Shown one piece after another: positions 1,163 to 3,114 of a stretch of 21,733 nt of DNA (position 1 is its first letter; each line of letters begins with the position of its first letter). The translations under genes were made by a program, and so were the position numbers. Below the pieces are notes generated by a model. It made no database searches and had not been told where the DNA came from. It saw only the letters and a program-made list of their open reading frames with translations. Source of the DNA: a virus; IMG/VR virus record IMGVR_UViG_3300028025_000271, positions 1 through 21,733 of that record; one strand, written 5' to 3'.

Positions 1163-1359
1163 TTATTGTTTTCCTGTAAATACAAAATTGTGTAGATGCG
1201 ACCGCGAATCTCTTGCGTGACAGCGTGACCCAGCTCCTCTGGGTTGAGCATCTCTTTAAGCAATTCATTGCGTGTCTTTAATTGCTCTCTTGCGTCCTCC
1301 AGCTCCTTCGTCAGCCAGACAATGTGCTCGCGCATGGTGTTGCGTTCTTCGTCATTCAT
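1159..1359 (-). CDS. Small coiled-coil phage protein, function unknown
   Basis: 66-residue charged protein whose first half (heptad-like Leu/Glu/Lys pattern around WLTKELEDAREQLKTRNELL) looks like a coiled coil. I chose the ATG at 1359 because it overlaps the stop codon of the resolvase gene as ATGA, with a G-rich Shine-Dalgarno-like stretch upstream; a GTG six codons earlier (1377) is possible but less economical. It overlaps the DUF2800 start by four bases, so it is translationally coupled on both sides. No domain is recognised; it may be an accessory to the nuclease or resolvase, which is only suggested by the operon. Confidence 0.7.
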   Translation of the reverse strand: MNDEERNTMREHIVWLTKELEDAREQLKTRNELLKEMLNPEELGHAVTQEIRGRIYTILYLQENNK

Positions 1360-1826
1360 AACTGCTTCAACCCCCACATTGCTATGAGCACAGCCTCAGC
1401 GCGACCGTCGTGCTTAACCAACTTAAACCAGTCCTGCTTGTCTGGGAAGAGTTCCATTGCGCGGTGTCTTGATGCGTCCTTGCCGTAGCCCTTGTTCATA
1501 GTCCTTGCCCAGACTGCTGGCTGAACATACGACACGGGTATTTGAAGCGCAGCCAATACGCCTTCAATGACCCCAGCAGAGCGTCCAAACGCAAAGGTAG
1601 AACTCACGCCTTGGTTTGGCATTGAGCCGACCTTCTCGACTGCCGCATGAGTCGGGTTCATCTCCTTGATGATGCCCACCAAGGCTTGCGCAGACACTTG
1701 TCTCTTTGTTGTCTTACCGCGTTTAATCTCGACGATAGGCATATCCTCAACGCGCTCTAAGACACCATCGACGATCAAGGAGATCGCACCGTTGTTGCCG
1801 ACATCGATACCAAGCTGTCTAATCAT
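1356..1826 (-). CDS. RuvC-like Holliday junction resolvase
   Basis: 156-residue RNase H-fold endonuclease of the RuvC type, the usual phage length. Motifs: Asp8 in GIDVGNNGAIS (first acidic residue of the RNase H fold), Glu64 in VEKVGSMPNQG (second acidic residue), and HDGRAEAVLIA with Asp140 and Glu144 (C-terminal acidic helix typical of RuvC and its phage relatives). It should cut four-way junctions in replication intermediates before packaging. The ATG lies inside the end of the upstream HTH gene (8-base overlap), and its stop overlaps the next start as ATGA, so it is embedded in the leftward replication operon. The family call is strong; substrate preference cannot be read from sequence. 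Confidence 0.9.
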   Translation of the reverse strand: MIRQLGIDVGNNGAISLIVDGVLERVEDMPIVEIKRGKTTKRQVSAQALVGIIKEMNPTHAAVEKVGSMPNQGVSSTFAFGRSAGVIEGVLAALQIPVSYVQPAVWARTMNKGYGKDASRHRAMELFPDKQDWFKLVKHDGRAEAVLIAMWGLKQL

Positions 1827-2031
1827 TCTTGACCCCTAAAGACGCAATGCGTCCAGCGATCAAGCGATCTGTTGCGGTTTTGAGCTTCTCAATGGAGGAG
1901 ACCAAAGGCACAGTATGCCCAGCCACCCATCGAGACATCTGAGCCTGATCAATGCCAGCCTCACGGCATATATCTGCCATCTTAAACCCCGCCTTTTCAG
2001 CGCGTTCTATGATTTCGGTTATGTAGTTCAT
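1819..2031 (-). CDS. XRE/Cro-type helix-turn-helix DNA-binding protein
   Basis: 70-residue protein consisting almost entirely of a lambda-repressor-like HTH. Residues 18-27 (KMADICREAG) form the positioning helix and residues 28-39 (DQAQMSRWVAGH) the recognition helix, followed by a hydrophobic helix that could dimerise. It is the first gene leftward of the divergent control region and is cotranscribed with the resolvase and nuclease genes, so it may autoregulate this operon and control the opposing rightward genes, in the manner of Cro. No clear Shine-Dalgarno sequence precedes the ATG at 2031, which is unusual beside its neighbours. It lacks a peptidase or oligomerisation domain, so it is not a CI-like LexA repressor. 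Operators are inferred from inverted repeats upstream. Confidence 0.8.
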   Translation of the reverse strand: MNYITEIIERAEKAGFKMADICREAGIDQAQMSRWVAGHTVPLVSSIEKLKTATDRLIAGRIASLGVKND

Positions 2032-2043
2032 GGCTAGAATGTT

Positions 2044-2062
2044 AACTCATAATTGACGAGTT
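2044..2062. promoter_or_regulatory. Short inverted repeat upstream of the HTH gene, possible operator
   Basis: AACTC (2044-2048) and GAGTT (2058-2062) face each other across nine bases, and the flanks nearly extend the symmetry (GTT on the left, GAAC on the right). It lies 13-31 bases upstream of the HTH start codon and contains TTGAC, also present in the larger inverted repeat at 2199-2233. It could be an autoregulatory site, but five-base arms are short. Confidence 0.3.
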
Positions 2063-2075
2063 GAACAAGGCAGAC

Positions 2076-2108
2076 AAAAAAAGGGGATGAGTCCTGTCAC
2101 CCATCCCC
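2076..2108 (-). terminator. Rho-independent terminator, leftward, upstream of the HTH gene
   Basis: Stem arms at 2083-2092 and 2099-2108 pair over ten bases with one A-C mismatch around a six-base loop (2093-2098). Read leftward, the hairpin is followed immediately by seven U residues (A-tract at 2076-2082). This is a textbook intrinsic terminator. It is oddly placed: about 45 bases upstream of the HTH start codon and in the same direction, so it would stop leftward transcription before the replication operon unless it is read through or anti-terminated. Confidence 0.8.
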
Positions 2109-2149
2109 TATCAAGGCAACTGCACCTCTTGCGGAGACATAAGGCACAG

Positions 2150-2175
2150 CCGACAGGGAAACTACACCCTGTCGG
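2150..2175. repeat. Perfect 9-bp hairpin in the control region
   Basis: CCGACAGGG (2150-2158) and CCCTGTCGG (2167-2175) are perfect reverse complements around an eight-base loop. No T-run follows on either strand, so it is not an intrinsic terminator by itself. It may be an RNA structure or protein-binding site. Confidence 0.7.
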
Positions 2176-2198
2176 GGTCTATTGTATTGGGGTAATAG

Positions 2199-2233
2199 TT
2201 GACTAAATAGTAGGGGCTTGATGATGTAGTCAA
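2199..2233. promoter_or_regulatory. Inverted repeat TTGACTA...TAGTCAA, candidate operator
   Basis: Perfect 7-bp arms at 2199-2205 and 2227-2233 separated by 21 bases. The arms coincide with the -10/-35 elements of the candidate leftward promoter, and the right arm lies in the spacer of the candidate rightward promoter. A dimeric HTH protein binding here could control both directions; the XRE-type protein at 1819-2031 is the obvious candidate. Confidence 0.45.
2204..2233 (-). promoter_or_regulatory. Candidate leftward promoter
   Basis: On the minus strand TTGACT (complement of 2228-2233) is followed after 18 bases by TATTTA (complement of 2204-2209), a fair sigma-70 match with a good -35 and a weak -10. 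It would start transcription near 2197, into the hairpin-terminator region and then the HTH operon. Confidence 0.4.
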
Positions 2234-2245
2234 TTCATGTATGAT
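2218..2245 (+). promoter_or_regulatory. Candidate rightward sigma-70 promoter
   Basis: TTGATG (2218-2223) and TATGAT (2240-2245) are separated by 16 bases; the -10 matches the consensus at five of six positions. Transcription would begin near 2252, giving a short leader before the first rightward gene, whose AAGGAG ribosome binding site is at 2268-2273. Confidence 0.5.
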
Positions 2246-2709: not shown

Positions 2710-2852
2710 TGAAACATCAAAACTACACCGAGAACTTTGAAGTCGATGGACCTTATCAAGACAACAAGATCAGCCTTGTGGATTGCGTTCTCATCTTCCT
2801 GACTGGCGTATCTGTCGGTCTCATCACAGCCCTCATTGCAACAGGAAACTAA
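2709..2852 (+). CDS. 47-residue single-pass membrane protein
   Basis: Read directly from the sequence: the ATG overlaps the previous stop as TAATG, and the frame stays open to TAA at 2850-2852. The N-terminal half is polar (MKHQNYTENFEVDGPYQDNK) and residues 22-45 form one hydrophobic helix (LVDCVLIFLTGVSVGLITAL), so it should insert in the inner membrane with a very short C-terminal tail. The tight fit between neighbours on both sides supports it as a real gene. Function unknown. Confidence 0.65.
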   Translation: MKHQNYTENFEVDGPYQDNKISLVDCVLIFLTGVSVGLITALIATGN

Positions 2853-2853
2853 T

Positions 2854-3114
2854 ATGTCAGTAGAAAAAAAGATTGAAGAGATTGTCTTAGGTTACTTAAA
2901 AAAAGCCGAAGGAAGAACAGCCATCATGTCTCCACAGGACATCGGTAAACTGGTAAGCGAAGCAGCTCACAAAGGTGCAATGCTTGGTTACGACGCAGGG
3001 ATGCAGATGGCACGACGCTCACACGGCAACGAGCTGGAGATCGCAGAATTGACAGTCAAAGAGTTGACCGAGCGCGTCAAAGAGTTAGAGACACAAATGA
3101 TTGCGCAGCAATGA
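2854..3114 (+). CDS. Small protein with C-terminal coiled coil, function unknown
   Basis: 86 residues, using the ATG at 2854 one base after the previous stop, with AGGAAA as ribosome binding site. A TTG six codons upstream is possible but would overlap the membrane protein gene. The C-terminal third (ELEIAELTVKELTERVKELE) shows clear heptad Leu/Glu/Lys periodicity, so it probably oligomerises. The middle contains MLGYDAGMQMARR. No family recognised. The stop overlaps the next start as ATGA. Confidence 0.72.
   Translation: MSVEKKIEEIVLGYLKKAEGRTAIMSPQDIGKLVSEAAHKGAMLGYDAGMQMARRSHGNELEIAELTVKELTERVKELETQMIAQQ

Follow-up and report, generated by a model that had tools for sequence, protein, structure and literature searches.

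A conserved structured RNA between divergent early operons of uncultured freshwater phages, a candidate repressor of translation

The IMG/VR virus record IMGVR_UViG_3300028025_000271 (positions 1 to 21,733, the whole stretch analysed here, referred to as the window) is an uncultured phage fragment. The 250-base gap that separates its divergent early operons holds a conserved structured RNA, the secondary structure of which is backed by covariation. We consider it fairly likely that this RNA is a stand-alone phage small RNA (sRNA) of about 100 nt, with anti-Shine-Dalgarno (anti-SD) loops that would repress translation by pairing with ribosome-binding sites (RBSs). To our knowledge, few phage small RNAs are known outside the model temperate phages, and most of them were found singly by RNA-seq. 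The present RNA represents an apparently undescribed conserved family, with covariation, in uncultured freshwater phages; it lies within the control region from which the early operons diverge, and yields a testable prediction, namely that its anti-SD loops repress translation.

Structure and conservation of the RNA

The phage head encoded in the window is related to the head of Methylophilales phage Venkman and to heads of Manatee Spring phages, and a DNA search with positions 1356–2300 found no relatives among GenBank phages. Leftward from position 2031 lie a helix-turn-helix (HTH) regulator gene opening the operon (1819–2031, minus strand, 70 amino acids; phrog_4 repressor, E 3e-4; Pfam HTH_Tnp_1, E 6.5e-6), a RuvC-like Holliday junction resolvase gene (1356–1826, minus strand; phrog_1770, E 1.3e-30), a small gene, and a DUF2800/PD-(D/E)XK exonuclease gene. 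Rightward from 2282 lie short early genes. The promoter scan places the divergent rightward promoter, TTGATG-16-TATGAT, at 2218–2245 (plus strand); it is conserved in relatives and overlaps an imperfect TTGA...TCAA palindrome detected by a palindrome search. Such palindromes lie over the divergent promoter (window positions 2218–2233) and, in relatives, over the HTH promoter (around 2050–2066); TTGA-N5-8-TCAA occurs 8 times in the window versus 2.9 expected. They are probable operators of the HTH protein.

The RNA is encoded on the minus strand at 2076–2175 and consists of three hairpins, a single-stranded GUUGCC and an intrinsic terminator, as delineated by folds, covariance model matches and covariation. 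Hairpin 1 (2150–2175, minus strand) reads CCGACAGGG-TGTAGTTT-CCCTGTCGG and forms nine perfect pairs closed by an 8-nt loop, UGUAGUUU, with an anti-SD-like GUUUCC on the 3′ side of the loop. Hairpin 2 (2120–2149, minus strand) is predicted by folding to expose an apical loop UGU-CUCC-GCA with the anti-SD core. Between hairpin 2 and the terminator lies the unpaired single strand GUUGCCUUGAUA (2110–2120, minus strand), which forms invariant columns in alignments A1, A2, A5 and A6; its GUUGCC is kept throughout the HTH-linked group. The terminator (2076–2109, minus strand) was identified by a terminator scan and comprises hairpin 3, AGGGGATGGGTGACAGGACTCATCCCCT, followed by seven T (seven U in the RNA). 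Terminator-like sites in the region (8 found versus 5.3 expected) are in no clear excess. An initial annotation of this DNA had described the perfect 9-bp hairpin and the U7 terminator in front of the HTH gene, both of which our scans recover in place; it had missed hairpin 2 (2149–2120), with CUCC in its loop, as well as the conserved single strand GUUGCCUU.

Folding of the minus strand from 2185 to 2072 yields −52.8 kcal/mol (z −4.7), and folding of the exact RNA −51.3 kcal/mol (z −6.0), while the plus-strand fold is weaker (−41.7). The six-frame list holds no open reading frame of at least 50 amino acids inside 2076–2175, and the RNA overlaps no called coding gene.

A search with the HTH protein retrieved 45 IMG/VR loci, and all of those of sufficient length carry the sRNA at the same place and on the same strand. 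Summed across searches and not deduplicated, about 100 IMG/VR contigs have the sRNA upstream of the HTH gene. The close group comprises 28 distinct sRNA sequences, including that of the window, with a divergent form in L046. In this group, the mean identity of hairpin 1 is 99.7% versus 68.5% at third codon positions of the HTH gene, 69% in the divergent promoter region and 74% in the sRNA promoter region. In close relatives no other stretch of the gap is as well conserved as hairpin 1, and the terminator varies more than hairpins 1 and 2.

The stems of the close group display 34 cells changed on both sides versus 12.8 in shuffles, and 98.6% of the stem cells are paired versus at most 54% when partners are slid. 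Alignment A5 (MAFFT) misaligned hairpin 2 between the close and distant groups, which were therefore counted separately. Hairpin 2 in 19 distant sequences is paired in 99.4% of cells, with 5 pairs changed on both sides and 24 two-sided cells versus 8.2 in shuffles. In both sets the number of two-sided changes was reached by none of 500 shuffles and is far above that of slid structures. The terminator arms also covary among relatives (CG/GC/AU and GC/AU). Conserved G-U pairs at columns 29–53 and 39–44 occur in 28 of 28 sequences, which fits an RNA of the minus strand rather than a DNA dyad.

Covariance searches, proposed by the initial annotation as a check, found matches in distant relatives, directly in front of the HTH gene and on its strand, at E values down to 1e-11 (model R1) and 1e-30 (model R2). 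More distant loci were found at E 7e-11 to 7e-4, with L147 at 0.018; in those read by eye, the sRNA lies directly upstream of a gene for an HTH homologue that is 50–76% identical. Two further scans with HTH profiles added about two dozen loci with the sRNA. The distant stems differ in sequence yet are intact, and in distant groups hairpin 1 is replaced by hairpins of other sequence, most of them with the loop GGUUUCUCC. A version with one hairpin is found in L147 and in at least 10 loci detected by motif; in the group L239–L257, hairpin 1 is mostly devoid of the anti-SD loop. All copies retain a strong terminator. Lack of hairpin conservation at the same gene order had been named as evidence against a functional RNA, but the hairpins are kept in nearly all relatives. 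A related HTH gene without the sRNA occurs in two branches, L148–L152 and GenBank MW202879. In the latter, the HTH gene (L233:9498–9668, minus strand) is unannotated, 46% identical, has its −10 box 7 nt ahead of the ATG, and underlies a gene annotated on the opposite strand.

An exact 22-nt copy of hairpin 1 in a Planctomycetaceae MAG (L195:1297–1318) was dismissed as chance, being at an unrelated locus and devoid of the other features. Short-motif searches in phages and plasmids returned only unrelated terminator-like or chance matches. Separately, an int-alpA RNA (RF02996, 41.4 bits, cut-off 35.8) was found in a relative, contig 3300017766_000747 (L125:111–176, minus strand, and L211:10328–10393, both on this contig).

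Promoters, exposed loops and candidate targets

Transcription, mode of action and targets of the sRNA are read here from sequence comparisons. The 5′ end is placed by inference at about 2176–2174. A candidate −10 box, TACAAT (minus strand, 2181–2186 in plus-strand numbering), ends about 7 nt ahead of hairpin 1, and 74 distinct blocks of relatives have TAAAAT, TACAAT, TAGAAT or CATAAT at the same place. The −10 box and the terminator are conserved at fixed places, with no clear −35. The leftward candidate promoter of the initial annotation has a good −10 box; it has no recognizable −35 and is absent from the promoter-scan list.

The HTH gene has a separate putative promoter, TTGTTC-18-TAACAT (2039–2068, minus strand), located 3′ of the terminator. 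In all 74 distinct blocks, exactly 7 nt separate its −10 box from the ATG (positions 2032–2044 in the window), and for this reason the HTH mRNA is probably leaderless: it could begin at or beside the ATG, bypassing the hairpins. The sequence evidence does not place its start upstream of the terminator. Given this separate promoter downstream, the sRNA is best read as stand-alone rather than as an attenuator. We hypothesize that leftward transcription from a promoter of its own within the gap yields the sRNA, that its own terminator stops this transcription and would thereby keep the sRNA and HTH transcripts apart, and that the HTH gene relies on its separate promoter and gives a leaderless mRNA.

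What is kept while the stems change is the anti-SD loop, the unpaired GUUGCC and the terminator. Nearly all copies have UCUCC (GUUUCCC in the shortest form) together with these two elements. All groups with a hairpin 2 have UCUCC or CUCC in its loop; most hairpin 1 loops contain GUUUC(U)CC, and the only hairpin of L147 contains GUUUCCC. In the predicted folds, CUCC-type sequence is thus exposed in loops, as expected of an anti-SD sRNA. Two anti-SD motifs mediate the translational repression exerted by Neisseria NmsRA/B (PMC5362039), and this precedent makes such repression the simplest mode of action. By analogy, the sRNA would most likely pair with RBSs through its anti-SD loops and the single-stranded GUUGCC and thereby repress translation, probably assisted by Hfq at the U tail.

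Loops were compared with the RBSs of the first four divergent genes on the same contig, against a null in which the anti-SD core was kept and the remainder of the loop shuffled. Perfect matches to their own divergent RBSs were found for 3 of 21 loop types (L046, 12 nt; L200, 11 nt; L147, 10 nt) versus 0.14–0.20 expected for matches of 10–12 nt (P about 0.003 or less, with a statistic chosen after the first matches had been seen). None of the foreign loops equals these matches. RBSs of the HTH operon display no excess (2 observed, 0.83 expected, P 0.16), and no long loop matches were observed in gene interiors. The candidate targets in L046, L258 and L200 belong to a common small membrane-protein-like family with a YPRTMEEAFG motif. 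Proteins of 57–67 amino acids that begin with a YPRTMEEAFG-like sequence and have a hydrophobic segment at the C-terminus are common among the first divergent genes (L046, L258, L260, L200, L121); two of them were searched and had no PHROG match. In the window, a candidate weak target is the RBS AGGAAACTA and start codon of an 86-amino-acid gene (2843–2856, plus strand), which could pair over 8 nt with the loop of hairpin 1. This match is 8 nt in the group of the window and 8–9 nt in most, not all, relatives.

Self-targeting as a general rule was rejected. Most loop types match the RBSs of their own phage over 5–8 nt, covering the core only; in a whole-RNA comparison ignoring accessible loops, own RNAs performed no better than foreign ones; among relatives fetched later, the sole added long match was L258, a close relative of L046; and L272–L274 retain the L046 loop despite a changed RBS. 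These limits make self-targeting a lead for some lineages only. Host mRNAs appear to be likelier general targets than genes of the phage itself; probable targets are host mRNAs, to which some lineages would add divergent early genes of their own.

Alternative readings of the locus

The initial annotation left two options, a stand-alone sRNA or attenuation/antitermination of the HTH-resolvase-nuclease operon. The former is favoured by the −10 box before hairpin 1, the U-tailed terminator and the separate HTH promoter, while the 74/74 spacing speaks against the latter. A structured leader of the leftward operon, starting at 2175 and subject to termination or antitermination before the HTH gene, would account for a terminator that lies upstream of the operon and is co-directional with it, and for the GACAGG common to hairpin 1 and the terminator loop in the window. 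The switch proposed on the basis of this GACAGG fails: of 43 close relatives, 15 have a terminator loop devoid of it, and so have several distant groups, with the rest of the sRNA intact. Together with the conserved HTH promoter and its 7-nt spacing, this led us to reject the attenuator and its switch, and we regard the leader reading as quite improbable. Similarly improbable is that the terminator alone matters, insulating the HTH promoter from transcription of the divergent region, with the upstream hairpins being incidental. A strong terminator in all copies would be in line with this, but the upstream hairpins covary, hairpin 1 is better conserved than any other stretch of the gap in close relatives, and hairpins 1 and 2 vary less than the terminator. 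Dyads are common at replication origins, and the position between divergent operons may likewise suggest a role of the inverted repeats at the DNA level, as origin, cruciform or protein-binding sites. We consider this highly improbable, as the conserved G-U pairs work only in minus-strand RNA, the plus-strand fold is less stable, and the U tract never changes sides.

A real stand-alone sRNA could, on the other hand, act by binding a protein instead of RBSs, either as a sponge for Hfq or another RNA chaperone, or on a translation factor. The loops and GUUGCC are constrained in sequence while the stems vary, hairpin 1 hardly varies among close relatives, most loops are without long complementarity in their own phage, and there is a precedent in the phage sRNA VpdS, which competes for Hfq (review: PMC12197685). 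However, the conserved loops consist of anti-SD sequence, their long matches fall on RBSs only, and nothing indicates a protein partner. We regard protein binding as rather unlikely, and prefer a stand-alone sRNA pairing with RBSs.

Related motif modules and known RNAs

A pattern scan for UCUCC, GC(A/G)GUUGCC and a T-run displays, among the matches listed and besides the HTH-linked group, the same motif order with a real terminator after unrelated genes. Among these matches, the module follows a head-assembly gene (L366, L372, L396, L398 and others), an HNH endonuclease gene (L373, L374), a major head protein gene (L387) and other genes; it also follows an HNH endonuclease gene in GenBank MW202462 (R2, E 1e-7). 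Several other matches are plainly due to chance and lie inside genes. The order UCUCC, GCAGUUGCC and terminator at gene 3′ ends was also seen in L367, L370 and L236:29602–29665 (minus strand); no HTH gene was found near these loci or near the head-assembly and L373/L374 copies. The 3′-end copies resemble the HTH-linked sRNA in motif order and terminator, but the folds differ: in the copies after head-assembly genes, GUUGCC is part of a small hairpin and UCUCC remains unpaired. It is possible, albeit doubtful, that UCUCC, GCAGUUGCC and terminator constitute one mobile sRNA cassette of many unrelated freshwater phages, stand-alone beside an HTH regulator or as the 3′ end of an mRNA (head-assembly, HNH endonuclease, others), which would silence the same group of host mRNAs at the level of translation or mimic a host sRNA. 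If the 3′-end copies share a function with the sRNA, this would point to a common RNA tool of freshwater phages acting on host or phage translation.

Comparison of the window and the loci of relatives with Rfam 15 at the gathering cut-off yielded no family matching the sRNA; matches to it or its relatives are sub-threshold only. Literature searches found no description of it, which is not proof of absence. The predicted sRNA resembles NmsRA/NmsRB (RcoF/NgncR_162-163; Rfam NmsRb RF02877), which are intrinsically terminated, similar in length and carry two anti-SD motifs (PMC5362039), but are chromosomal and linked to metabolism. The NmsRb model scores 20.6 bits on one distant relative (cut-off 52) and is absent from the sub-threshold matches of the window. 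The mmgR/suhB sRNA of Alphaproteobacteria (RF00519) shares the succession of hairpin, single strand, terminator and U tail, and its consensus contains GUUUCCUCCC. Its model scores 25.4 bits on one relative (cut-off 41, E 0.0009), with the aligned part being mostly terminator and U tail, and does not match the window itself. Identity with mmgR or NmsRb was rejected, both being below cut-off.

Short phage RNAs such as lambda OOP, P22 sar, lambda PreS and VP882 VpdS are established, several of them with phage control genes or host mRNAs as targets (PMC12197685). OOP and sar are antisense to overlapping genes, in contrast to the sRNA described here, which has no overlapping called gene. The cI mRNA of lambda transcribed from PRM is a leaderless repressor mRNA, and the HTH gene shares this geometry of −10 box and ATG; unlike in lambda, a predicted sRNA gene with its own terminator is located directly upstream of the repressor promoter.
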